64,000 bases of DNA. Source: Parvibaculum sp. (GTDB lineage Bacteria > Pseudomonadota > Alphaproteobacteria > Parvibaculales > Parvibaculaceae). Made by a program: the position numbers and the translations under genes. The notes beneath the pieces were generated by a model. That model did not search any database and was not told where the DNA came from. It was given only the letters and a program-made list of their open reading frames with translations. The DNA lies in assembly GCA_030649335.1 (NCBI GenBank), contig JAUSLL010000119.1:1-64000 (forward strand). Direction: 5' to 3'. Below are positions 4,182-44,417 of this stretch, in pieces (positions within the stretch are counted from its first letter, which is position 1; each line of letters starts with the position of its first letter).

Positions 4182-4500
<319 letters not shown>

Positions 4501-4921
4501 TACCAAAGAGTCACGTGCAAACCGAAGACCTCTTGCGAGAGGCATTTTGTAGTCTGATTGCTCCGCAAACAGTCACGAGACACAGAGAGGTCGGTCATTC
4601 GATTTCAGTTTCTCCCACCAATCAATCACCAGCACCTTCAAGACCGCTTGGCCGATCACAGAAGTCTCCGTCGTTACGGGGACTTGCGGCGCATATGTGA
4701 ATCGCGTTGTCCTAAAATGTCTCTCTGTGGAGGGGCTCTTTACGCATTTCTGGGGTCTGTTCTCTGTGGGCCTCATAACAAGACCGCTCCAGCTTTATTC
4801 GATGCTCAATGATGCACGGCGATGCTGCTACTTTCTGGCCCTTTTGGTCTGGAACTTTGCGGGACGGATGAAGCCCGCGTGGAGCGCGGGCTTGCTGGCG
4901 CAGGCAGATTTGAGTGGACTT

Positions 4922-6577
4922 CTAGATGAACCCGAGCGCTTCTCGCTGTGCATTCCAGTCGGAAGGCAGCTTGGAGATTCTAACGAGCTTTTGGGAAGTG
5001 AGTCCTGAAGGCTCATTGCCGGTGAGTATGGCCTTCGTGATATCGGGCGCCAAAAATGCAAGCCGAATTGTGCGAGCTACCAAGCGCTCATCGATCCCAT
5101 CGCGAGAAGCGATCTCTTTGTAGCTCAGGCCAGTTTTCAGATCTTCGAACCAGCCGTGGGCGCGAGCGATCGCTTTGATAAGGGATGGATCAGCCCGAGG
5201 TCTGTCGCCATCTTTGATCTGTCCGATGATGAGCTTCTTGCCGTTTCCACACCGCTTCAATTGAAACGCCCTTGCAATGATGTGGGGTTGGTCTGTTTGG
5301 AGAGTGGTGGCGAGTTGTGCTTCTGCCGCAGGCACTAGAAGGTCACGCAGCCCATGTTGATTGACCTCTATCGTTATCCGTCTTTCAGCGATTATGATTT
5401 TATTGATGATGCGGACCATTAGGTCTCTGCGTGGTCGAGCCTTAAGGTCGGCGGCGTATTCCAGGGATCGAATACCTACAGCTTGCATCACATTCGGATT
5501 GTCGATGTGAATGATCTCGCAAAGTTCTCTCTGGTGTTGCAGCAGGCCGACTAACTCTGCCGTTACAAACTCGTCGATCTCGTGGGCAGGCAGGGTACGC
5601 GCTGGATGAAGGTAGTAATGCGTTCGAACGCCAGCCGTTTTCGTGTGGCGAGACGAGAACGGTTTCCCGTCTTCATGTGCGAGGAGCCCTGCGAGAAGGC
5701 ATGGTGATTTCGCATTCTTTTTCGTCCGGTGATCAAATCCATTTGCGGCGAGAAGATCCTGAACCTGTGCCCAGACATCAGGGCCGATGATCGCCTGATG
5801 CTGACCTTCATGGACAAGGTCCTTGTGTTTGATGCGGCCGATATAGATCGGGTTCTGCAGCAGGGTGTAGAGCGCGCCGCGCGTAAAATCACCGCCGCCG
5901 CTTGTTTTGCCTTTTTGAGTAGTCCAGCTCTTTGAGAGGAGTTTGCGACGTTTGAGGTCGTGCCGGAGTTTTATGACGGAGCGAACCTCGAGATACGTTT
6001 TGAATACTTCCCGCACCTCATCTGCCTCGGCTTCGTTGATCATCAGTTTGCGATGATCGACGTCATAGCCGAGCGGTGGCCTGCCTCCCATCCACATGCC
6101 CTTCTCTTTCGAAGCTCGGAACTTGTCCCTGATGCGCTCTGCCGTGACCTCACGCTCAAACTGGGCGAAGGAGAGGAGCACGTTGAGAGTGAGGCGTCCC
6201 ATAGAGGTGGTCGTATTGAACGCTTGGGTCACGGATACGAAGGAGACTTTGTGTTTGTCGAATATCTCGACAAGTTTGGCAAAGTCGGCAAGCGACCTCG
6301 TCAGGCGATCGACTTTGTAGACCACAACAATGTCGACTATGCCCTTTTCGATATCCTGCATGAGTGTTTGCATTGCCGGTCGGTCGAGGCTACCGCCGGA
6401 GAAGCCGCCATCATCATAGCGAGCGGGTAGAGCTTCCCAGCCTTCGTGCGTTTGGCTCATGCAATAGGCGGCGCAGGACTCTCGTTGAGCTTCGAGAGAG
6501 TTGAAGTCCTGGTCCAGTCCCTCATCCGTCGATTTGCGCGTGTAAATCGCACAACGAAGTTTGCCAGAGGTCTTCAT
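4922..6577 (-). CDS. Large serine recombinase
   Basis: MKTSGKLRCAIYTRKSTDEGLDQDFNSLEAQRESC..., VVYKVDRLTRSLADFAKLVEIF, FAQFEREVTAERIRDK: resolvase catalytic domain plus recombinase domain. Confidence 0.95.
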   Translation of the reverse strand: MKTSGKLRCAIYTRKSTDEGLDQDFNSLEAQRESCAAYCMSQTHEGWEALPARYDDGGFSGGSLDRPAMQTLMQDIEKGIVDIVVVYKVDRLTRSLADFAKLVEIFDKHKVSFVSVTQAFNTTTSMGRLTLNVLLSFAQFEREVTAERIRDKFRASKEKGMWMGGRPPLGYDVDHRKLMINEAEADEVREVFKTYLEVRSVIKLRHDLKRRKLLSKSWTTQKGKTSGGGDFTRGALYTLLQNPIYIGRIKHKDLVHEGQHQAIIGPDVWAQVQDLLAANGFDHRTKKNAKSPCLLAGLLAHEDGKPFSSRHTKTAGVRTHYYLHPARTLPAHEIDEFVTAELVGLLQHQRELCEIIHIDNPNVMQAVGIRSLEYAADLKARPRRDLMVRIINKIIIAERRITIEVNQHGLRDLLVPAAEAQLATTLQTDQPHIIARAFQLKRCGNGKKLIIGQIKDGDRPRADPSLIKAIARAHGWFEDLKTGLSYKEIASRDGIDERLVARTIRLAFLAPDITKAILTGNEPSGLTSQKLVRISKLPSDWNAQREALGFI

Positions 6578-7020
6578 GCAGCCTCCTTCCGACGCGCGTT
6601 CTTTTTCTTGAGTCCGAAGAAGAGAGGTCCATTCCAGTGTGTGCCTGTGATCTCGCGAGCGATCTCGGAGAGACTTCGCCAGACTCGATTCTCAAAGACA
6701 TATCCCTTGTCGAGGACCTGCACCTGATAGGTCTTGCCACGCCACTCTCGGACAAGCGTTGCACCAGAGTTGATCTTCTGAGTCGGCTGTGAAGCGCCAG
6801 GTTCTTTGCCTGACCGAAGGTCAGTCATCAGAAGGGTAACGTGCTCACGGATCCCTCGATCATGTCCGCCGTGTGTCTTGCTCTGCTGTTGCCATCCGAC
6901 ACCGAGTTCGAGCAACTCGCGCCCCGCGCGCGGTGGTGGAGGGGTGCCGAAGGCGTTGGTCCAGAAGCTACGTAGGCTTGCGATGGTGAGGCCAGCTAAG
7001 TTGAGTCCCGCGTCCGTCAT
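6574..7020 (-). CDS. DUF2924 family protein
   Basis: LVREWRGKTYQVQVLDKGYVFENRVWRSLSEIAREITGTHWNGPLFFGL; 4-bp overlap with the recombinase ORF. Confidence 0.85.
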   Translation of the reverse strand: MTDAGLNLAGLTIASLRSFWTNAFGTPPPPRAGRELLELGVGWQQQSKTHGGHDRGIREHVTLLMTDLRSGKEPGASQPTQKINSGATLVREWRGKTYQVQVLDKGYVFENRVWRSLSEIAREITGTHWNGPLFFGLKKKNARRKEAA

Positions 7021-7289
7021 TGACGGCCACCCTCGGCAGCAACTTTGGAGAGGCGGTAGACCCGGCCACGATTTTCATCGGTTGCGGCGGTGATCGCCAG
7101 CCCATGCCGTTTCCGAAGCGATCCGCTTATTGCTCCTCGTACGGAGTGGGGCTGCCAACCTGTAGCCTTGATGAGATCGTCAAGCGTGGCGCCTTTTGTG
7201 CGTTGCAACAGGCGGATGATCTGTCCGAGCTTGGAATTTGAGGGAATTGTGGTTTGGGCGTTTGAATTGGGTTTTGCACGCGATGCCAT
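7017..7289 (-). CDS. DUF3489 family protein
   Basis: SKLGQIIRLLQRTKGATLDDLIKATGWQPHSVRGAISGSLRKRHGLAI; ATG at 7289 preferred over the 7385 ORF start; overlaps the DUF2924 gene. Confidence 0.8.
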   Translation of the reverse strand: MASRAKPNSNAQTTIPSNSKLGQIIRLLQRTKGATLDDLIKATGWQPHSVRGAISGSLRKRHGLAITAATDENRGRVYRLSKVAAEGGRQ

Positions 7290-7444
7290 GTTTGGGCTCC
7301 ATTTCTGGCGGGCTCCTGCCGACCAGGCGCCCTCACCCCGAAAAGCCCTGGGTCTTATCCCGAAGGGCCTGTGCGGTGTCCGCACAAGGACATGGATGCT
7401 TCCTTTGCCGTGGAAGTCCAGTCTCGTCTCTCTCTTTGTGGAAT

Positions 7445-8469
7445 GTTGCGGCTGGTCAGCGATTTTCTATCGGCTAAACTCGTATCGGATATCGGGACCG
7501 GATCGGGCGCGTTGCGGCTGGTCCGCGATTTTCTATCGGCTAAACTGACGCCGCTCATTCACTTGCCCTCCTGTGGGTTGCGGCTGGTCCGCGATTTTCT
7601 ATCGGCTAAACTGCTCGGCCTGCGCGCGAGCGATCTGTTCATGTTGCGGCTGGTCCGCGATTTTCTATCGGCTAAACTCGGGCCGGTAATCGACCGGCGA
7701 CATCTTGGGTTGCGGCTGGTCCGCGATTTTCTATCGGCTAAACTCAAACTTACGAAGGACTGAACAATGACAGAGTTGCGGCTGGTCCGCGATTTTCTAT
7801 CGGCTAAACTAAGTGCCAGACACACAACTTATCAGGAGACGTTGCGGCTGGTCCGCGATTTTCTATCGGCTAAACTAGCGTGAAATAAAAACGCTATTCC
7901 GACGCAGTTGCGGCTGGTCCGCGATTTTCTATCGGCTAAACTTTACTGATGCTGTCCCATCTTTGCGAATAGTTGCGGCTGGTCCGCGATTTTCTATCGG
8001 CTAAACTTGGCGAATATGAGTGGCTGGTGATGCGTCAGTTGCGGCTGGTCCGCGATTTTCTATCGGCTAAACTCTCTGCTATCAAGGATGCCTTGTGCCC
8101 AAAGTTGCGGCTGGTCCGCGATTTTCTATCGGCTAAACTTGCAGCAACAAGAGTGAGCACTGCGGCGGCGTTGCGGCTGGTCCGCGATTTTCTATCGGCT
8201 AAACTTCAACAACGCAGCGGGATTAGCCCGCCGCAGTTGCGGCTGGTCCGCGATTTTCTATCGGCTAAACTATACATACTGATACATGCTGAGAGACATA
8301 CGTTGCGGCTGGTCCGCGATTTTCTATCGGCTAAACTAAACCCCGGCGCGGGCAACGGATCGGCAACGTTGCGGCTGGTCCGCGATTTTCTATCGGCTAA
8401 ACTGCACAAAGAGGATTGCATTGTGCCTAAGGCGTTGCGGCTGGTCCGCGATTTTCTATCGGCTAAACT
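7445..8469 (+). CRISPR. Type II-C CRISPR array: 16 repeats of 36 bp, 15 spacers (30 bp; spacer 8 is 29 bp)
   Basis: Repeat GTTGCGGCTGGTCCGCGATTTTCTATCGGCTAAACT at 7445, 7511, 7577, 7643, 7709, 7775, 7841, 7907, 7972, 8038, 8104, 8170, 8236, 8302, 8368, 8434; the first repeat differs (GTCAGC instead of GTCCGC). Confidence 0.98.
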
Positions 8470-8543
8470 CGATGTTGTGCCAAGTCTCTGATTTAAAAGG
8501 AGATTTGGCGCAATTTCCTTTCAAAATCCGGTGATTTTGAGAG

Positions 8544-8882
8544 CTATAGCAGCACATATTGCTTCGGATTCTCATTGGCTTTCTCACGCGTTCGCCCGTC
8601 GAAGGATACAATGGTCTCATATTGGCGGTCGGTGAAACAGAGAATTTGGACCAATCCAGTCTTAGGGAGCGATTTTTCGATCCGTCGCGTGTAGGCCTCG
8701 ACCTGCTCTTTGCCACCGCAAAAGCGCATATAGACCGAAAATTGACTCATCCCGAAGCCTTGGTCGAGCAGGTCGTTTCGGAAGCGTGTCGCGCCACGCC
8801 GCTCTTTCTTTGTCCCGACGGGCAAATCGAAGATTACCATCATCCACATCAATCGGTATCCCGTGAGCATGGCTGTCGACAT
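8544..8882 (-). CDS. cas2: CRISPR-associated endonuclease Cas2
   Basis: YRLMWMMVIFDLPVGTKKERRGATRFRNDLLDQGFGMSQFSVYMRF; next to array and cas1. Confidence 0.95.
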   Translation of the reverse strand: MSTAMLTGYRLMWMMVIFDLPVGTKKERRGATRFRNDLLDQGFGMSQFSVYMRFCGGKEQVEAYTRRIEKSLPKTGLVQILCFTDRQYETIVSFDGRTREKANENPKQYVLL

Positions 8883-9809
8883 CTAGCAGTCGAACTGTCC
8901 GCTGATGTTGGGCAGTTCGAGTGGCAGAAGTGTGCGCGGTAATATCAAGGTTGGTTTCCCTGCTTCAAATGACTGGGCAAGCGAATAGGTAAGACGTTCG
9001 GCGCAGGTTGAGACGGGTGTTGTGCCTTGCTCGGTCGCCATATCGAAGGCGAGGACCTCAGCCAGTACAGCTTTGGTTTCGGGTGACACGTCTGTGGCGC
9101 CGGCCGATTGAAGACGAGAGACGGTGTAGTCAACGATGGGGCGAAAGGGCTCCATCAGATCATCGACAAGACACATGGGATTGTTGCGATTGCTGTGATG
9201 CAGCCCGACAGAAGGGTGCAGCCCAGCGGTGGTGACAGCGCGCGCCACGCCAGCGCGCAATACTGTATAGCCATAATTGAGCATGGCATTGACGCCGCCG
9301 GCGTCACGGTCACGACGAAATGTTTCACCCATGAGCAATGGCCAATAGCGTCGGGCCGCCTGAGCTTCGATGTTTTCGGGGTCGCCGGATTTCACTTTGC
9401 GAGCGAGCAGGTCGAAAGCGCCGTCCGGCTTGCCAAGCCTTTCGAGCACCGCGCCCTGCTGTTCAATTTTCGCACGCACGATGACCTGCCATAGCCGTTT
9501 ACGCAGCGGGGCGCCGACTTCCAATTGATGTCTCATGCGCAGGCTCTGCACATGATGCCCATCAAGCGGCCAGAGCCAGGCAATGGGCATATGGTTTGGC
9601 CCGCATAACACAACGCAAGCGCCGCGCTTGGCCAGTTCGACCATTAGATTATTGGAGTAAGTCAAACCGTGCGCGTGGCAAAGCAGCACGCCAATATCAT
9701 CAAGCGGAATGCGGGCCACTTCTGTTCTGTCATGTGAGACAGTAAGAAAGCCGCGCGAAAGGGCCAGATGTCTGTCGTCGCTGGCAATTTCGACGACGCG
9801 GCCGATCAT
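8883..9809 (-). CDS. cas1: CRISPR-associated endonuclease Cas1
   Basis: GRVVEIASDDRHLALSRGFLTV..., GGVNAMLNYGYTVLRAGVARAVTTAGLHPSVGLHHSNRNNPMCLVDDLMEPFRPIVD. Confidence 0.96.
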   Translation of the reverse strand: MIGRVVEIASDDRHLALSRGFLTVSHDRTEVARIPLDDIGVLLCHAHGLTYSNNLMVELAKRGACVVLCGPNHMPIAWLWPLDGHHVQSLRMRHQLEVGAPLRKRLWQVIVRAKIEQQGAVLERLGKPDGAFDLLARKVKSGDPENIEAQAARRYWPLLMGETFRRDRDAGGVNAMLNYGYTVLRAGVARAVTTAGLHPSVGLHHSNRNNPMCLVDDLMEPFRPIVDYTVSRLQSAGATDVSPETKAVLAEVLAFDMATEQGTTPVSTCAERLTYSLAQSFEAGKPTLILPRTLLPLELPNISGQFDC

Positions 9810-12800
9810 GCCGCTCTCGGTCCGACGGGTGTGCGAGGTCCGGGGTCGGTCAATCTGCCGATTTCATCGACACCGACTTTACGGAAGTTCTTTTTTTGTA
9901 GCCCGCTACAACTTTCGGCTAGATATTTCAGTTCCTTATTTCGTACCCGCGCATCGACATTTCCCTCGTTGTGGTCGGCAAGATAGACGTACTCTTTGCC
10001 GCTCTGGGTGCTCATCTTACAGACGCGCACAATCCTTCGTTCGGGACCTTCACCGATGGCCCCCATGTCGTCAATGTGTAGCCGCATCAGTTTTTTTGCG
10101 GCCGGATGAGGGCGGAAATCGGCTGGATTGAATCCCCGCTGGTTGGCATCAAAACGGCGAACGATCACGGTTCTCCAGCCTCCGTCCGGCAAGGCCCAGA
10201 CTTCGGCAAATTCATTACCGTCCGGTTTATATGCCTTGTAGGGTTTTCCAGTCTTGCGATCCTTGATGGCGATGACACCAAGTTCATCGTATATCCTTAC
10301 GCGCCGTACTTTCTGGATGCGCCCGCTGATTTTTACGCCTTGGGTGGCAACCATTTCGGCGAAAGCGACGGCGAGGTTTTGAGGTTTTTTGCGGCTGTCC
10401 GGGTTGTCAGGATTTGTAGTGTCCGGCGGCGCGAGTTTGAAGGCTTCCCATGCTCCGGTGAGGGCCTCGCGCAGAGCTGCATCGCGGATCGCAGGAAGGC
10501 CATTGTCCATGTCTTTGGGCGTGGAAAACTTGGCAAGCGGCACGCGATAGACGACCTGCGTATTGCCCTTTTTGCCCGGCCCGACAATGCCATAGGCCGT
10601 GTCGTTGTGCAGCGCGCCAGTTGTCATGCCCTTTTTGCCCGGTGAACCGTGATCGGTCTTATGGGCCACCGTCAATCGCGCAAGCTGCGCACGCAGGACT
10701 TCGCGATCAAAATCTTCCCACGGATCGGGTATGGCGTCGATCAACCGCTTTCGGTCCGCATTGGCGTTAAGCTGTGAAATTAATTGCAACAACCGTTGAT
10801 CGGTCATGGCGACGACAAAGGCGTCCAGGGCGTGATGGCGGTGATCATCGCGGTTCTTGCGTGGCGGCGCATCCTCTGCGCCTACGCGGTTGTGACCAGG
10901 CAGCAAGGACGACAGGCCCCATTTGCCACGCAGCATGGCGGTAAGCTTGCCGGGAATGGCACGCACCCGCAGGCGACCTTCGTCTTTTTCATTATAGAGG
11001 TGCGCCAGATAGCTTCTTGCAATGCGTGAAAGATATTTTGTCTCGTTGAGCTGCCGGTCGAGGAACCCACGTTCCTCGTTTTCATAACGCTCCATCGCAT
11101 CGGCATGAAAGCGCCAGCGTTTGTTGCCCTCGAGCTTGTCGGTGCGGAACAATATATCGTCATAGACATATTTGCGGGGTCCGATAGTCGGGTCGTTCTG
11201 GAAGGCTTCAAAAGGGGCGCGATCCCGCTTGGCGCGGTTCGCTTCGCGCAGGCAGATCACCTTGTTGGCCATCGAGTCATCAAGCGTTTTTGAGAAGGGC
11301 AGAATGTGCTCGATCTCAGTCGCATCGGAAATCGCCATTTCGAAGGATATGGCATCACCGGTGAACGGGCAGAGATTGACGGTGCCGACTTTTTGCTCCT
11401 CCCAAAGCCGCAGCTTGCGCAAGAGATGGGGTGAGGGGGCAACGCCTGCGGCGCGGATTTTTTCATCGCGCGCGCGGTTGGCGGCCTCGTTCAGACTATT
11501 CTTTTTGCGCGCCTCGTCCTTTTGTTCCTTATTCATTTTGAGATCGCGGGCAAGCTCGACCACGATTTCCTCCGGTCTGCCGTGAACCTCGATGACACGA
11601 TTAACCGTACGGCGGATCTGATTGAGGCCGATATGAACCGTGGGGTTGGCGAGCCGCCCATAATGCCCCACCTCGTCTTCTTTGGGTTTGGAAGGATCGG
11701 CACCGACGCAATGGCGGGTCAGCACTTCGGCATAATAGGGCAGGTGGTCGCGGACTTTATCTGGCCGAAAGTCGGAGTGATGGCCATATTCCGGCACCTC
11801 GGCCACCGCCTCGGCATAGTTGAGACCTTGCCCCTCCATGATTGGCAACAGACGCGCAATCGCTTTTTCGCTGAGGCGCGCATAGCCCTCGGGCATAGCC
11901 TTGGCGGCAAGCTTTTTGGCGGCGGCTTCATTAAGTCCCCATTCGGCCATAGCGATACGCTCAATCTCTTCGGGTTTTTCCGTTTCGATCAGCTTACGCA
12001 CAATCTCGGTGCGGCGTTCGACCGGAAAGTCGAGCCAGCCTTTGCCGAATATATGATCGCTTTTCAGTCTGTCTGACGCCTCCTCGCCCTTGATAGTCGT
12101 CCGGTGGTCATCGAAAAGATTGACGGTCGATCCGGATGGAAGCTTGAGAAACTTCAGCATCTGCTCAAGTTTCAATTCTTTTCTTGTGCGCAAATGGTCG
12201 AGCACCTTGTCGCGCTCGATCATGGTCAGAGGTCGTGCGGGCTGGCCGGGACATTGAACGCGCAGATTGTTCGCCTCCTGCACCATGCGGAATTCCTGTG
12301 TGAGGGGCAGTGCGCGATGGGCGCGTCGCTCACCTTCCTCCATCAGACACCAACCCGGATCAACCGGCTTCAAGGGGCGCTGGAAAAAGATGATATCGCG
12401 TAAGGCATCCCATTGTTCGGGGCTGAGAGTCTGATGCGGCGCTTGCGTCTCATGGATCGCGGCGAATTCGTCTTCGTACATTTGCCGGTCGGGATAAAAA
12501 CCCGCTTCGGGTCGGGCACGCACCATGCGGCCTTTGACGTGTCGCTTGTGGAAATATTCGCCCAGCGTGCGCGCGCCGGTTTTCTCCATCAGCTTGCGAA
12601 GTTCGTTAATCCGTTCCTTGACGACACCTGTCTCCTTGTCTGCGTCACCACCATCAGTTTTGCGATTGCTCTTGAAACCACGACGCTGATTGAGGTGGAA
12701 GAGGGCGCGGCCCAATTCATGCGGCGCAAGCGGACGGTCAATTGCGGCCGCTCGGAGAATATAAGGATCAAGGTTCTCCAGCGCTTTGCGTTCGGCCTCG

Positions 12801-13060
12801 TCATCCGGCATCAGCCCGAAGGCGACCAGAAACTCCATCAGGCCGGAGCGGCGGTCGAGATAACGGTCGCGTCGCCGCCGCATGCCGCGCGGTACACGCC
12901 GCTGAACCGCCAGCGATGACTGGTCCTTGGGATTGCGGCCGTCGCCGAAAATGCGAGAGCCCCCACCGAGCGAGCTGCGGGGCACGCCGTCCTGATCGAG
13001 TTCCACCGCCCACCAGCCAATGGAATTTGTACCGAGGTCCAGTCCGAGCCTATAGCGCAT
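9806..13060 (-). CDS. cas9: Type II-C Cas9 (about 1084 aa from MRYRLGLDLGTNSIGWW)
   Basis: RuvC-I DLGTNSIGWWAV; arginine-rich RGMRRRRDRYLDRR; RuvC-II EEIVVELARDLKMNKEQK; HNH EIEHILPFSKTLDDSMANKVICLREANRAKRDRAPFE; RuvC-III DHRHHALDAFVVAMTD. Confidence 0.97.
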   Translation of the reverse strand: MRYRLGLDLGTNSIGWWAVELDQDGVPRSSLGGGSRIFGDGRNPKDQSSLAVQRRVPRGMRRRRDRYLDRRSGLMEFLVAFGLMPDDEAERKALENLDPYILRAAAIDRPLAPHELGRALFHLNQRRGFKSNRKTDGGDADKETGVVKERINELRKLMEKTGARTLGEYFHKRHVKGRMVRARPEAGFYPDRQMYEDEFAAIHETQAPHQTLSPEQWDALRDIIFFQRPLKPVDPGWCLMEEGERRAHRALPLTQEFRMVQEANNLRVQCPGQPARPLTMIERDKVLDHLRTRKELKLEQMLKFLKLPSGSTVNLFDDHRTTIKGEEASDRLKSDHIFGKGWLDFPVERRTEIVRKLIETEKPEEIERIAMAEWGLNEAAAKKLAAKAMPEGYARLSEKAIARLLPIMEGQGLNYAEAVAEVPEYGHHSDFRPDKVRDHLPYYAEVLTRHCVGADPSKPKEDEVGHYGRLANPTVHIGLNQIRRTVNRVIEVHGRPEEIVVELARDLKMNKEQKDEARKKNSLNEAANRARDEKIRAAGVAPSPHLLRKLRLWEEQKVGTVNLCPFTGDAISFEMAISDATEIEHILPFSKTLDDSMANKVICLREANRAKRDRAPFEAFQNDPTIGPRKYVYDDILFRTDKLEGNKRWRFHADAMERYENEERGFLDRQLNETKYLSRIARSYLAHLYNEKDEGRLRVRAIPGKLTAMLRGKWGLSSLLPGHNRVGAEDAPPRKNRDDHRHHALDAFVVAMTDQRLLQLISQLNANADRKRLIDAIPDPWEDFDREVLRAQLARLTVAHKTDHGSPGKKGMTTGALHNDTAYGIVGPGKKGNTQVVYRVPLAKFSTPKDMDNGLPAIRDAALREALTGAWEAFKLAPPDTTNPDNPDSRKKPQNLAVAFAEMVATQGVKISGRIQKVRRVRIYDELGVIAIKDRKTGKPYKAYKPDGNEFAEVWALPDGGWRTVIVRRFDANQRGFNPADFRPHPAAKKLMRLHIDDMGAIGEGPERRIVRVCKMSTQSGKEYVYLADHNEGNVDARVRNKELKYLAESCSGLQKKNFRKVGVDEIGRLTDPGPRTPVGPRAA

Positions 13061-13205
13061 CGTGCGTTTCCTATTAAGAAGGCGGCATTTTGCTGATTGG
13101 CCGCACACTCCAACTCAATTGCCGTGATTTGCATTCAGTTCAAATTAGCCATTTTCTAGTCAAAAGGATCTTGTCTTGGCAATCAACCCTCACTAGACTG
13201 ATGAT

Positions 13206-13336
13206 TGTCGATACGATTTATATTTAGCCGATAGAAAATCGCGGACCGTTAGCGAAAGCCTCCGGGCCTAGCAGCCGTTAACAAGCCCTTGGGGCATAAA
13301 ATCAAAGGGTAGGCCACGGCCTACCCTTTTGTTTTG
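13206..13336 (+). ncRNA. tracrRNA (5' end approximate)
   Basis: 13223-13247 TTTAGCCGATAGAAAATCGCGGACC is the exact reverse complement of repeat positions 10-34; followed by hairpins and terminator AAAGGGTAGGCCACGGCCTACCCTTTTGTTTT; possible promoter TTGTCT(13171)-N17-TAGACT(13194). Confidence 0.92.
13304..13335 (+). terminator. Rho-independent terminator of the tracrRNA
   Basis: AAAGGGTAGGCC-AC-GGCCTACCCTTT followed by T-rich tract. Confidence 0.9.
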
Positions 13337-13495
13337 ATTGCAAGGTCTTTGAGGCAATGTGGCTTTGGCGCAATGCGGCCATTCAATATCCGATAATATG
13401 CAGTATGGACAGTTGCCGTATTGGGCAGTTTTGTTTGTATGCTGAGTGAAATTAGTAAGCATGATCGGGAATCTAATTGTATCTACCAGTAGCCT

Positions 13496-14206
13496 CTAAT
13501 CGGGTATCGCCTTGGTAATCATTCTGAGAATCCGACGCTCACTTGCGATGCTATCCGCAATAGCCTTGTTCTTCGGATCCTTTGCCAGTAGCGCCTCCAA
13601 CGCAGCTATAGATTTCTTGAAGCTCTTCTTGCGTTTCCGCAATTCGTCCCAAATTTTCTTGTCTTCGGGTGTCATGGGACCCCTCACCTCTGCCCTGCCC
13701 GTATTCATATCGATAATAATGTCGTCTGGATGGGGGATCATTTCAGGAGCAGGGATACCCAATTTCTTGCAGCGCTCAATTTCTTTCATCCCATCAATTT
13801 TGTATTCGATCATGGTCTTGATGTACTCGTCGTGCAGCGCCTTCTTATCTTCCTCCACAACTCTCAAAAGATCGGTGAACGTTTTCTGTGCCTTTGCATT
13901 TCCCTTCGCAGCCGAGAGTGCTACACCGCGCAAAATAGCCTGAACAACTGGTATCTCGACGAGCTTTTCACCGTCACGCACGCTGATAGTGCGATAGGCC
14001 TCTTCCTGAACAATGTCCTTCATGCGCTCTTCGCTCATGTGTGGAACGCCTGTGGCTACGGCTTTCTTTTTTGGGCGCCCGTTTGGATTTCCAGATTGTC
14101 CAGGCTTGAATCTTGTCGCGGCGGGTGGCTTTCCGTAGCCCACTGCTTCGTCATCCGCATTATTTTCAGTATCAAGCTTTCTCGCTTCTGCTCGACGCAC
14201 ACTCAT
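13496..14206 (-). CDS. DUF5681 domain protein
   Basis: GYGKPPAATRFKPGQSGNPNGRPKKK N-terminal signature. Confidence 0.85.
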   Translation of the reverse strand: MSVRRAEARKLDTENNADDEAVGYGKPPAATRFKPGQSGNPNGRPKKKAVATGVPHMSEERMKDIVQEEAYRTISVRDGEKLVEIPVVQAILRGVALSAAKGNAKAQKTFTDLLRVVEEDKKALHDEYIKTMIEYKIDGMKEIERCKKLGIPAPEMIPHPDDIIIDMNTGRAEVRGPMTPEDKKIWDELRKRKKSFKKSIAALEALLAKDPKNKAIADSIASERRILRMITKAIPD

Positions 14207-15621
14207 GAGCCTTCTCCAAGATTAGTTGGAGTGAGAGTGTCTGTGGGTTCGTTTGAAATCCCCGAAATGTAAGTCTTACTCAGACCAGGCTGATTTTCGG
14301 GGTAGGGCGCTTGTCGAGCGTTGGTAGCTTGATTAAATGTCTCACCGGTCTCCACCAGTATCGCGTCGTCTTTCGCGAATGCTTCCCAACGCCGAATGAT
14401 CCGATCGACATAGATCGGATCAAGCTCAGCGAGATAGGCACGGCGGCTTGTCTTGTGCGCGGCGATCAGCGTCGAACCGCTGCCACCGAACGGGTCGAGC
14501 ACCACATCATTGCGTTTCGACACATCCTTGATGGCGTCAGCGATCATTGCGACTGGCTTGACGGTGGGATGGAGGGCAAGTTCTTCCATGCGTCCTGCCC
14601 GTAATGTGTTGACGCCTTTGTATTCCCAGACATTGGTCCGGTACCGACCATGTTGGCCGAGTTCGAAACTGTTTAGGTGAGGCGCAGTGCCGTTCTTGAA
14701 AGCAAAGACCAATTCATGACGGGATCGATAGAAAGTGCCCATTCCCCCATTGTCCTTTGCCCAGATACATAAGTTTTTGAGTTCACTGAAGACTGTCTCG
14801 CCCGCCGCGAGCATTTCAGACATATGGCGCCAGTCCATGCAGATGAAATGGATCGATCCATCGAGGCTGAAGTTAGCCAAATGCCGGAAGGCCGAACGGA
14901 GAAAGGTTGTAAACTCTTCGTGCGACATCTCGCCGGATGCCATCGCGAACTCGCGATGCTTGATGGCGCCGAGCCCACCAACGTTGCCATCAATCACGAC
15001 ATTGTAGGGCGGGTCAGTGAAGACCATTCTGGCTTTGGTTCGTCCAAGCAAACGCTCGTAGGTGTCGGCTTCGAGCGCGTTGCCGCAAATCAGACGGTGC
15101 GGACCTAATTGCCAAATGTCGCCGGGCTGCGAAATTGCGCTTCCGTCTTCAACCACAGGCAATTGATCCTCTAATGGATCGCCAACTTCCTCTGGGTTAA
15201 GCCCTTCGATCAAATTGTCGATCTCGGGGATCGAAAACCCTAAGACTCCAATGTCGAAGTCGAGATCAATCTCGAGCAAGTGTTGTAGTTCTTCTGCGAG
15301 CAATTCTTCGTCCCAGCCAGCGTTGAGCGCCAGCTTGTTGTCCGCTAGCACGTAGGCTCGTTTCTGGGCAGGTGTCATGCTCTCGAGCCTGATGCAAGGG
15401 ACACAATTCATTTGAAGTTGTCGCGCCGCTTCCACGCGTCCGTGGCCCGCGAGAATTGTGTTCTCGCCATCGATCAGAACCGGATTGGTGAAGCCAAAGG
15501 TCCGCATGCTATCGGCCAGCTGATTGATCTGCTTCTTGGAGTGGGTACGGGCATTGCGCGCCCAGGGCCTGAGCGCCGTGATCGCTATCTTTTCCAGGAC
15601 CAGTTCATTGCTCGTGATCAT
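14203..15621 (-). CDS. ParB-like nuclease domain fused to a site-specific DNA methyltransferase
   Basis: N-term NARTHSKKQINQLADSMRTFGFTNPVLIDGENTILAGHGRVEAARQL; methylase motifs MVFTDPPYNV and VLDPFGGSGSTLIAA. Confidence 0.93.
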   Translation of the reverse strand: MITSNELVLEKIAITALRPWARNARTHSKKQINQLADSMRTFGFTNPVLIDGENTILAGHGRVEAARQLQMNCVPCIRLESMTPAQKRAYVLADNKLALNAGWDEELLAEELQHLLEIDLDFDIGVLGFSIPEIDNLIEGLNPEEVGDPLEDQLPVVEDGSAISQPGDIWQLGPHRLICGNALEADTYERLLGRTKARMVFTDPPYNVVIDGNVGGLGAIKHREFAMASGEMSHEEFTTFLRSAFRHLANFSLDGSIHFICMDWRHMSEMLAAGETVFSELKNLCIWAKDNGGMGTFYRSRHELVFAFKNGTAPHLNSFELGQHGRYRTNVWEYKGVNTLRAGRMEELALHPTVKPVAMIADAIKDVSKRNDVVLDPFGGSGSTLIAAHKTSRRAYLAELDPIYVDRIIRRWEAFAKDDAILVETGETFNQATNARQAPYPENQPGLSKTYISGISNEPTDTLTPTNLGEGS

Positions 15622-15757
15622 CGTTCACCCCCTCAGGCACAGATTCGATTTGTCTTCCATATTCGTAAGATCATAAAAACGATGCTGCTTGTCAACCCTC
15701 ATGCTATGATTCAGTAAGACCAAAAAAACAAAATGGTCATAAAGATGGGGTTTGCAC

Positions 15758-16093
15758 ATGGGATTAGGATGGAAGATAGGCCAGCTCAGGCTGGAGAATA
15801 ATCAATCACTTCAAGAGGTTGCTGATGCCGTGAAAGTATCAAAAGCCCATATTTGGGAGCTAGAGAAAGAACGCACCGACAACCCGTCAATGGCGCTGGT
15901 AACGCGGCTTGCCGACCACTTTGGGGTCTCCGTCGGCTATCTGATCGACGAGGATCTCACATCGCCTGAAGCCGATGACACGCTTATCCGCATGTTCAGG
16001 CAGGCGAAGGAACTCGATCCGGGGGATCTGATGGTCATCGATGATATGATGCAGTCCTTATTGAAACGTCGAAGGGAGAGGCATGGGACTTGA
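15758..16093 (+). CDS. XRE-family HTH regulator
   Basis: IGQLRLENNQSLQEVADAVKVSKAHIWELEKERTDNPSMALVTRLADHFGVSVGYLI. Confidence 0.9.
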   Translation: MGLGWKIGQLRLENNQSLQEVADAVKVSKAHIWELEKERTDNPSMALVTRLADHFGVSVGYLIDEDLTSPEADDTLIRMFRQAKELDPGDLMVIDDMMQSLLKRRRERHGT

Positions 16094-16904
16094 GCTTGAT
16101 CGGATCGCTCTGGATGACTTCAGCGCCCACCCGGAAGGCTTGGCGCGTGCAATCCATGCGCAATTGCCCGGCCATCAAACAGGTGCTGTTCCGGTCTATG
16201 AAATCGCCCGTGCGCTTGATATTGAAGAAATCCGTGAAGAGCGTTTGAGCAAAATCGAAGGTGCTCTAATCACCACGCCTGAAAAAAGCTTTGGGTCCAT
16301 TCTCGTTAACGCGAACTCCTCTTTCAAACGTCGTCGCTTCACGGTTGGCCATGAGCTCTGCCACTTTCTGGATCTGACGCATCAAGCGACAGCGTCCACC
16401 GGATTCCAGTGTGCAAAAGTCAGCTTCGTCATTCCTGAATATATGGTTCGCCATATGAGGCAGGAGAATGAGGCAGATCGTTTTGCTATCGAGCTGCTAG
16501 CGCCCGAAGCTCGCGTGGCTGCTTTTCTCAAATCGACTCCTGATTTGGAGCAAATTATCGCGCTCTCGGAGGGGCTTTGGATCAGCAAGACAGCCGCCGC
16601 TCGCCGCTACGTTGAACTCCACCCGGAACCGCTCGCCGTCGTGTTAAGCCAGCATGGTGTCATTAGCAGCATAGTGCGTCCGCCAAAGTTTCCGTATCTG
16701 CGAGTTTGGAACAATCACGCGCTACCGGCCACTCCTGCGAGGAGCGGCAATGAGATTAGCGATTGGCATGAGGTCCGCGCGACAAGCTGGCTTAGCAGTC
16801 CCTCTCGCAGTTTAGTTCGCACACAGACGCTCTATCAGAGAGACGGTTATGCCATGACGCTTATGCATGCGGATTTACAGCCGAGCCCGCTAATCGTTAG
16901 CTAA
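16083..16904 (+). CDS. ImmA/IrrE family metallopeptidase
   Basis: RRRFTVGHELCHFLDL (HExxH) and RQENEADRFAIELLAPE; overlaps the XRE gene. Confidence 0.9.
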   Translation: MGLELDRIALDDFSAHPEGLARAIHAQLPGHQTGAVPVYEIARALDIEEIREERLSKIEGALITTPEKSFGSILVNANSSFKRRRFTVGHELCHFLDLTHQATASTGFQCAKVSFVIPEYMVRHMRQENEADRFAIELLAPEARVAAFLKSTPDLEQIIALSEGLWISKTAAARRYVELHPEPLAVVLSQHGVISSIVRPPKFPYLRVWNNHALPATPARSGNEISDWHEVRATSWLSSPSRSLVRTQTLYQRDGYAMTLMHADLQPSPLIVS

Positions 16905-16987
16905 CGAAATTTGCGTCGCACGGAATTAGCCGCCGCTGGGAGAGTGCGCGATGAAGGCACAGGTACACCTCTATGTCAGTGAAACAT

Positions 16988-17007
16988 AATTCCTAGTTAT
17001 CGATAGG
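16988..17007. repeat. Dispersed inverted-repeat motif, site 1
   Basis: AATTCCTAGTTATCGATAGG, followed by AGTT. Confidence 0.8.
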
Positions 17008-17247
17008 AGTTTTCGAATTCGGGCTGGTTCGCTCAACCCATGAGGCGATCTCAATTTAAAGCCAGAGGAATCTGCTGGATTTAGATCGCAGATTATACAT
17101 ACCTACCTTGATCGGCGAGGTTCGTCGTTCGCACTCTCCTTCGGGAGGCATCGTGTTCATGATGGCAAGCTATGTCCGCTCGTGGCGCAATGCAGAGTTC
17201 AGTCAGCAAAGACGTTTGTCTCGCTGATGATGTAAATCGGTTTTCGT

Positions 17248-29415: not shown

Positions 29416-30461
29416 TGGCCTACCTCATGAACCGAAACGCCGTCATCAAGCGCGGCATTGCCGGTCGTAATGACCCGATCACCTTCGGTGATGCCACTTG
29501 CAATCAATGAAAATTTGTCTGTTTCAACCGCGATCACGACATTCTTGCGTTGCGCTTTTCCGCCTTCGTTGACGAAAAGGTATGTGCCCTCTGCATCTTC
29601 CAAGATCGCGGTGCGCGGCACCAGAACACCATCGACGGGCGGCAGGAAAATATGCGCGACCATTGTCGATCCGAGAACAGGCGCAGGCGACATGTCGTCA
29701 TCCATTGAAGCGACGGCGGTCACAAGGCGGCTCTGTGGATCAATCATACCGCCAATAGACGAAAGAGAGCCCGATATCGAGGCGCTATCGTCCAAAGGAA
29801 ATGCCAGCGTAAGTTTGGCGTGTTTCTTCACCTTCATGGCGTCTTCGGGTTCGAGGCCCAGATTGGCAATCAGCCTCGAACGCCCACCAATCGTCGCAAG
29901 CACGCTGCCGGAGGTTTTCATGTCGCCCGGTGTCGCCATGATGGAGGTAATGACACCGGCAAAGGGGGCTTTGATGACGGTCGAATTTTGCGCCGATCCC
30001 ATTTGCCGTTGAGCGCGCAACTGGGCCGCCGCATCGTTCAGCGTTTTTTCGGCGATCGAGAGCTGATCGTTTGAGGCAAGGCCGGAGGTCTTCAGCCGCT
30101 TGAGACGCGCAAGGTCTTTACGCGCCAAAGCATAAGAGCTCTCCGTTTGTGCAAATTGAGCGGCGGCCAGCGGCGTGGAAGATATCTGCAATAAGGGTGC
30201 GTCCTTGTCCACCGCCTCACCGGCATGGACAAGCACATCTTCGATGACGCCGTCCTGTTGCAGGATGATGCTGCGCGTATCGGATGGTTTTGAATCGAGC
30301 GTGCCATAAGCCACCACTGTCTCCGCGAGCGAACCTTGCTTGGCAATTGTCGTTTGAACCTCCGCGCTTGGTTCTGCCCTAGCAACCGAAATACCACCTA
30401 GGGTCAAAGCCGAAAGGAGCAGGAAATTCGATGCAAGAGTTCTGATTTGGCACTTTCTCAT
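29412..30461 (-). CDS. RND efflux periplasmic adaptor (membrane fusion protein)
   Basis: HlyD/CzcB-like: VLVHAGEAVDKDAPLLQISS; STVIKAPFAGVITSIMATPGDMKTSGSVLATI. Confidence 0.9.
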   Translation of the reverse strand: MRKCQIRTLASNFLLLSALTLGGISVARAEPSAEVQTTIAKQGSLAETVVAYGTLDSKPSDTRSIILQQDGVIEDVLVHAGEAVDKDAPLLQISSTPLAAAQFAQTESSYALARKDLARLKRLKTSGLASNDQLSIAEKTLNDAAAQLRAQRQMGSAQNSTVIKAPFAGVITSIMATPGDMKTSGSVLATIGGRSRLIANLGLEPEDAMKVKKHAKLTLAFPLDDSASISGSLSSIGGMIDPQSRLVTAVASMDDDMSPAPVLGSTMVAHIFLPPVDGVLVPRTAILEDAEGTYLFVNEGGKAQRKNVVIAVETDKFSLIASGITEGDRVITTGNAALDDGVSVHEVGQ

Positions 30462-42846: not shown

Positions 42847-43015
42847 TCCCTGTTATCGGCTAGAAATTCCCTGATCCCCTAGTAAATATTCCCTGTTACT
42901 GTAGTAAGGGAATTGCAGGCTAAGTATTTGAATTTACGCCGACATTCAGGTATATTTGATGCTTCTGATGCCGTATTTCAGAGAAGTTCCCTGTATTTTC
43001 CCTGTTAACAGGGAA
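42847..43015. repeat. Cluster of TTCCCTG(T) motifs ending in an 18-bp perfect palindrome
   Basis: ttccctgtta 42847, ttccctga 42868, ttccctgtta 42890, inverted gggaa 42907, ttccctgt 42987, then TTCCCTGTTAACAGGGAA 42998-43015. Confidence 0.8.
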
Positions 43016-43051
43016 TTTTGGGTGAGGCGGGGCGTCTTAGGACTGCGCACA

Positions 43052-43299
43052 CCACCAATCTACACCCTTATATCTAGGCATATTATCTACATTCAGAATG
43101 TATCAAACTTTTCCGTTGGTTAGCGGGTGGTTGTGCGTCGTATTTGCGTCTCTGGCGGACTAGAGAGAGGGCAATACGGCCCCTTAAATGCCTTTATCTC
43201 TGATGGCCTCAAAAGAAGACCTCTTCACGGAAATGAGCATCCTTAGTGCATCAGATTTGTATCTTTGAAATTCATCAGTTTGCAGATGACTGATCGCTC
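43052..43299 (+). repeat. Long direct repeat, copy B
   Basis: ccaccaatctacacccttatatctagg...gatgactgatcgctc; same orientation as copy A. Confidence 0.93.
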
Positions 43300-43890
43300 A
43301 GGATGACTTCAGCGCAAACCCAGAAGGCTTGGCGCGTGAGATCCATGTGCAATTGCCCGGGCGCTTGATATTGAGGAAATCTGTGAAGAGCGTCTGAGCA
43401 AAATCGAAGGTGCCTTAATCACGACGCCTGAAAAAATCTTTGGGTCCATTCTCGTTAACGCAAACTCCTCTTTCAAACTCGCCGCTTCACGGTTGGTCAC
43501 GAGCTCTGTCACTTTCTGGATCCGTCATGTCACGCGACAGTGCCAACGAGTTCCAGTGTGCAAAAGTCGGCTTCGTCATTCCTGAGTATATGGTTTGCCA
43601 TATGAAGCAAGAGAACGAGGCAGATCGTTTTGCTGTCGAGCTACTCGCGCCTGAAGCTCGTATGGTTGCTTTTCTCAAGCAGGCCCCCGATTTGGAACAA
43701 TCACGCGCTACCGGCCACTCCTGCGAGGAGCGGCAATGAGATTAGCGATTGGTATGAGGTCCGCGAGACAAGCTGGCTTAGCAATCCCCCTCGCAGTTTA
43801 GTTTGTACAAAGACACTGTATCAGCGAGACGGTTACGCCATGACGCTTATGCATGCGGATATACTGCCGAGCCCACTAATCGTTAGCTAA
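43300..43890 (+). pseudogene. Decayed ImmA/IrrE peptidase gene, duplicate of the 16083-16904 gene
   Basis: ggatgacttcagcgc...ctaatcgttagctaacgaa aligns with 16111-16904 but lacks a 40-bp and a 161-bp internal segment, plus other small changes; frame broken. Confidence 0.9.
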
Positions 43891-43973
43891 CGAAATTTGT
43901 GACGCACGGAATTAGCCGCCGCCGAGAGAGTGCGCGGTAAGCGCCTCTGGTCATTTCTTTGTCAGGGACTCAT

Positions 43974-43993
43974 AATTCCTAGTTATCGATAGG
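43974..43993. repeat. Dispersed inverted-repeat motif, site 2
   Basis: AATTCCTAGTTATCGATAGG, followed by TGTT. Confidence 0.8.
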
Positions 43994-44417
43994 TGTTCAA
44001 CGTAAGTATCTGCGAGGTAGAATTGAGGCTTAGTCAAAGGAGGGTTTGGTCTCGTCAAATTGACTAATAAAAGAAGTTGAGAACCAAATCCCGGCGTCTA
44101 AGGCCCGGCTGAGCGACACGCAAACACTATCGCCAAAGATAAGATCGGGATTGTCGTTGATCGACTTCGTGGCGAAAGCAGCATAGTCGAGTTGCTCCGC
44201 TATATGGCTTAGCGCGGCGCTGACCATCATCTGAAATCCGATCAGCTTACATACTATCGATATCTGGTTTCAGCGATTTCTTCGAGCAAGCCAGCACGGT
44301 AGCCTGTTCTTTCAAATGACGATCTGCGAGCTCCCGCACGTTCGGTGGCCAACGCGTCTGCTCTCGTTAGACTATCGGATCGCGGGCCTGACTAATTTGC
44401 GCTTCAGAAAACCCGTG

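Follow-up and report, generated by a model that had tools for sequence, protein, structure and literature searches.

A second island in a tandem array at a Parvibaculum tRNA-Ala gene reads as a remnant shortened by deletion at an 8-bp repeat

How did the left end of one genomic island come to stand directly against the interior of a protease gene, when in the neighbouring island the same two sequences lie about 11.6 kb apart? The question is raised by a 64,000-nucleotide stretch of Parvibaculum sp. DNA (GenBank assembly GCA_030649335.1, contig JAUSLL010000119.1, positions 1 to 64,000; hereafter the window), in which two islands, A and B, follow each other downstream of a tRNA-Ala gene. Related genomes are referred to by our own handles (G001 and so on).

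Tandem islands at tRNA-Ala(GGC)

The boundaries of the islands are set by the following features.

4182..4257, + strand: tRNA-Ala(GGC), target gene of the tandem islands (ARAGORN; Rfam tRNA)
4253..4260, + strand: attachment core CACCAATC at the tRNA 3' end
4253..4500, + strand: left repeat, copy A (92% identical to copy B, 81% to G018)
4616..4623, + strand: second core CACCAATC, left end of the serine-recombinase island
42984..43052, + strand: right end of the A recombinase island (TTCCCTG..AACAGGGAATTT..GACTGCGCACAC); the same block precedes CACCAATC in G008, G009, G001, G016 and G018
43053..43060, + strand: third core CACCAATC, start of B
43053..43299, + strand: left repeat, copy B

The core CACCAATC consists of the last five bases of the tRNA-Ala plus three more, and it recurs, flanked by island ends, at contig positions 4253, 4616, 43053 and 69627; only sites with island-type flanks were counted, which leaves out intragenic copies at 29885, 84827 and 100450. 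With a core at every boundary as well as at the tRNA 3' end, the locus is, as judged from its sequence, a tandem array of serine-recombinase islands at tRNA-Ala, and the cores are putative recombinase sites. The tract after 4616 is a typical recombinase-island left end, which five relatives (G008, G009, G014, G016 and G001) carry directly at the tRNA and follow with a reverse-strand serine recombinase. In G008, G009 and G014 the recombinase is backed by DUF2924 and DUF3489 genes; G016 has a DUF2924 gene in this place.

The interval 4616-43060 reads as a single serine-recombinase island, A, of about 38.4 kb. The A copy of the left repeat (4253-4615) would then lie outside this island, adjoining the tRNA, and B would start directly after the right core of A's recombinase island. 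The first-pass annotation had taken island A to be one unit beginning with the left repeat, a delimitation contradicted by the second core and the recombinase-island left end at 4616. The 363-bp piece between the first two cores looks as though it had been left by an element bearing a copy of the tRNA end.

The left tract begins at the core (4253 in A, 43053 in B), and B 43052-43299 matches A 4252-4500 with 92.4% identity and one 1-bp gap. The repeat was found in three places only, A, B and G018: beyond the window, G018 was its sole other location among the genomes searched (27 from the genus, 41 from the order and 387 from the class), and no copy was found in plasmids. In G018 it sits directly before a CRISPR array, and this left end shares one stretch with a recombinase-island-type right end, with no internal core between them; a recombinase match is absent from the 65 kb examined there. 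The left repeat was also considered as a structured RNA and rejected, as it has no Rfam match and folds no better than shuffled sequences.

In G016, two recombinase islands stand in direct tandem at the same tRNA. In the window, about 30 bp before the core at 4616 (4578-4623) weakly resemble the tRNA 3' end, with about 18 of 30 positions matching by an eye count on the alignment. Beyond the window, a terminal-oxidase-like gene (contig 69927-71564) follows the last core at 69627. We considered this gene as the old chromosomal flank and rejected it, as it is not near tRNA-Ala in relatives; its closer homologues (66-75%) are found only in four congeners, and it is apparently accessory.

Island A carries the following genes and elements.

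4922..6577, - strand: large serine recombinase (Resolvase and Recombinase domains, Pfam); homologues right after tRNA-Ala in G008, G009, G014, G016 and G001
6574..7385, - strand: DUF2924 and DUF3489 genes, companions of the recombinase
7445..8470, strand unassigned: CRISPR array of 16 repeats of 36 bp with spacers of about 30 bp
8544..13108, - strand: cas2, cas1 and cas9 (type II)
13496..15621, - strand: DUF5681 gene and N6/N4 DNA methylase gene
15752..16093, + strand: XRE repressor, CapH-like (PADLOC capH model, E=8e-21, 73 bits)
16083..16904, + strand: intact immA, M78 metallopeptidase, CapP-like, 273 aa (PADLOC capP model, E=1.5e-39, 134 bits)
16905..17011, + strand: immA 3' flank, common to A and B

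The CRISPR-Cas locus of G018 is related to that of A (75% DNA identity over the cas region) and has 67 repeats. Positions 13205-13336, which are 89% conserved with G018 and contain an anti-repeat, probably encode the tracrRNA. When CRISPR spacers were compared with the available DNA, no A spacer matched B. One G018 spacer matches 23 of 25 bases at 30160-30184, inside an efflux membrane-fusion gene, a level of agreement that could be due to chance.

The junction in island B and the decay of immA

The junction and its counterparts in A are these.

4493..4501, + strand: GATCGCTCT, left copy of the microhomology word in A
16103..16111, + strand: GATCGCTCT, right copy of the word in A, 20 bp inside immA
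43292..43299, + strand: deletion junction GATCGCTC
43300..43890, + strand: immA (capP) pseudogene, its frame disrupted relative to the intact A homologue
43891..43997, + strand: 3' flank of the immA pseudogene, homologous to 16905-17011

As the first-pass annotation had proposed, the left repeat of B joins immA directly at GATCGCTC, and base-level alignment puts the breakpoint there. B matches the A immA from 16103 (= 43292) onward, and the left-repeat match and the immA match overlap in exactly these 8 bases. On the + strand of the window, GATCGCTC occurs only at 4493, 16103 and 43292, which confirms the two A copies reported earlier at 4493-4500 and 16103-16110, although the word shared within A is actually 9 bp long (GATCGCTCT). 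B has an adenine at 43300, where both A copies have T, and its junction reads GATCGCTC-A-GGATGACTTCAGCGC. When the 365-bp left tract is joined to the 929-bp immA tract in every possible way, a fraction of 1.0e-4 of the joins have at least 8 bp in common. At about 1 in 10,000 random joins, chance is an unlikely source of the repeat found at the breakpoint.

The word thus stands once at the B junction and twice in A, at either endpoint, the pattern left by a microhomology deletion, with A, a paralogue rather than B's own ancestor, serving as the undeleted form. The polarity of the event can be read on both sides. On the left, it follows from the fact that A and G018, a member of the same genus, still align with each other past the breakpoint, their conserved tract running about 60-70 bp beyond 4500 (to about 4560) and including a short stem. 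On the right, it follows from the immA open reading frame, which is intact in A and in relatives while B begins 20 bp inside the gene. The earlier description of B as a deletion derivative, joined at an 8-bp direct repeat, is therefore well supported by the alignments, which place the deletion in B and not in A.

The immA copy of B, which lacks the start codon and the first 20 bases, has been damaged repeatedly. A 40-bp deletion after about 43360 corresponds to A 16172-16211, with GCCCG at both ends, and a 161-bp deletion after about 43690 corresponds to A 16544-16704, with TTTGGA at both ends. Single-base losses near 43478 and 43542 shift the frame, and in-frame stops are present, as in a pseudogene. 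Three short-repeat deletions and two frameshifts thus fall within 0.7 kb of B, and by its sequence B immA is a decaying gene. A comparison of the A and B genes gives 62 codon differences, 31 of them synonymous, as compared with 23% expected without constraint (p=6e-6); the excess is also above the approximately 36% expected if only A were constrained (p=0.015), a value that assumes a dN/dS of 0.1 for A. These proportions are modest evidence that B immA was probably functional for some time after its split from that of A, and would therefore then have had its 5' end.

Taken together, we consider B very probably to be the decayed remnant of an older island of the array at tRNA-Ala(GGC), from which a segment was removed by a deletion between two copies of GATCGCTC. 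Its ancestor would have carried the left repeat, an intervening segment and an intact capP-type immA. Deletion between the two copies of the word would have taken out the segment and the initial 20 bases of immA, leaving a single copy of the word. Replication slippage would end in this way, as would microhomology end joining, and the sequence does not discriminate between the two. This history assumes that everything was lost at once, whereas several steps could end at the same junction. The two further immA deletions, flanked by 5-6-bp repeats, and the two frameshifts would be part of this decay as well. Younger islands inserting at the CACCAATC site would have pushed B away from the tRNA, as suggested by the order of the cores and the greater decay of B.

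A variant compatible with this history is that the deletion fused a left-repeat relic to a neighbouring recombinase island, the two never having been one unit, and we regard it as a realistic possibility that comes close to being evenly balanced. In A, a core preceded by the weak tRNA-3'-end-like tract separates the left repeat (4253-4615) from the recombinase island (4616-43060), and in G008, G009, G014, G016 and G001 the recombinase island adjoins the tRNA, with no left repeat. However, A shows the same composite order, and the composite may have been transferred or copied whole; the uninterrupted stretch of G018, with the left end of one element and the right end of the other, also speaks against a fusion of two elements.

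It is highly unlikely that direct contact between the left repeat and immA is the natural state of one type of island, from which A was derived by insertion of a recombinase/CRISPR block. The left repeat is indeed known in just three copies, and A does have a separate core at 4616 before its recombinase, but the truncated reading frame of B immA already contradicts this order: the gene lacks its start and first 20 bases, as well as the capH gene that adjoins intact copies. Such an insertion would, moreover, need to create both the 5' end of immA and the tail of the left repeat, and the A and G018 sequences agree beyond the breakpoint. Least probable of all is an assembly chimera. Although the genome is a draft of 135 contigs, B diverges from A to the left of the junction (8%, left repeat) as well as to its right (about 10-14%, immA) and is therefore not a mis-joined copy of A, and an overlap of 8 bp is far shorter than those used by assemblers.

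The segment lost from island B

The first-pass annotation had equated the loss with about 11.6 kb, A 4501-16110. The deletion itself stands, but the equation does not: no DNA of A 4501-16102 survives in B or downstream, and 11.6 kb is therefore the interval in A rather than a measured loss in B. The second core and the recombinase-island left end at 4616 also mean that A's equivalent of the deletion crosses an element boundary. Using the left repeat, the immA protein, B immA DNA and the right end as probes, we found no undeleted B in the 27 genus, 41 order and 387 class genomes, in named genomes or in phages, plasmids and viral collections; the B region was not found in phages, nor was there any match among viral contigs. 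B's ancestor is therefore reconstructed rather than seen. Homologues of immA in relatives are near full-length and distant, with about 31-48% identity over most of the gene, and a scan of named genomes returned one relative at 48%.

The surroundings of these homologues indicate what B may have lost. In A, the XRE repressor and M78 protease genes are adjacent and both match PADLOC models, as in the CapH/CapP pair, in which an XRE repressor is likewise followed by an M78 metallopeptidase. All nine immA copies that were examined have capH as a neighbour, and a methylase gene is divergent to the pair in six (A, G004, G008, G009, G025 and G119); a methylase match is absent from G078, G015 and a named metagenome contig within the stretches examined. 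Wherever the sequence extends far enough, a DUF5681 gene adjoins the methylase.

Because of these frequencies (9/9 and 6/9), the loss of capH and methylase is better supported than that of CRISPR-Cas9. Loss of capH from B is very probable and well supported, and loss of the methylase and DUF5681 genes is probable. The recombinase was likely lost as well, since the islands that carry the module in A, G008 and G009 have one, and an attachment core likely went with it; B would then no longer be able to mobilise itself. Loss of a CRISPR-Cas9 locus is possible but speculative: it is possible because the two left-repeat loci that are undeleted, A and G018, carry related type II loci, but the stretches of the other recombinase islands that were fetched showed no cas genes. 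The earlier suggestion that B once had a recombinase or even CRISPR-Cas thus holds as likely for its first part and as conjecture for its second. We consider it doubtful that the left repeat marks a family of type II CRISPR-Cas9 islands at tRNA-Ala and that B had its own locus, lost along with the recombinase. If true, two tandem CRISPR islands would have stood on one chromosome, the older of which was lost by deletion.

The four-gene module (window 13496-16904: DUF5681, N6/N4 methylase, CapH-like XRE repressor and CapP-like protease) is present in A, G004, G008, G009 and G025, and its orientation relative to the recombinase in A is opposite to that in G008 and G009. Its recurrence suggests that a CapH/CapP-type switch may control a methylase. 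Unlike the known CapH/CapP pair, the putative pair described here, identified from gene models, points away from a neighbouring DNA methylase gene and a DUF5681 gene; no CBASS operon was seen adjacent to it, and the B copy is a pseudogene.

Parallels and significance

Loss of parts from tandem islands is already well known, and the junction in B is an instance of ordinary island decay. ICESt1-related elements, which stand in tandem at one site, are said in work by Pavlovic and colleagues to evolve by deletion and by accretion through site-specific recombination. The present locus resembles them in its tandem elements at one site and in the combination of deletion and accretion; it differs in the bacteria and the type of element concerned, and in the endpoints of the deletion, which here are an 8-bp word that a noncoding left end has in common with a protease gene. 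Dehalococcoides has tandem serine-recombinase islands downstream of ssrA, some of them without a recombinase module (PMC3146451, which cites Pavlovic et al. 2004 for the evolution of islands by deletion and accretion). As in our locus, multiple tandem islands lie downstream of one RNA gene, a reverse-strand serine recombinase module adjoins the left end, and some islands lack this module (PMC3146451). The Dehalococcoides islands use ssrA as target, a 20-bp repeat and a CcrB-like recombinase, whereas here the target is tRNA-Ala, the core has 8 bp and the recombinase is accompanied by DUF2924 and DUF3489 genes.

While our findings leave knowledge of the deletion process itself unchanged, they redraw the island boundaries at this locus, which bears on all other readings of the window. 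Island B offers a cleanly polarised example of the decay of a tandem island, in which the attachment core and the distal cargo were kept and the side removed by deletion was the 5' side, the one that in the intact neighbour A holds the recombinase and the defence genes.
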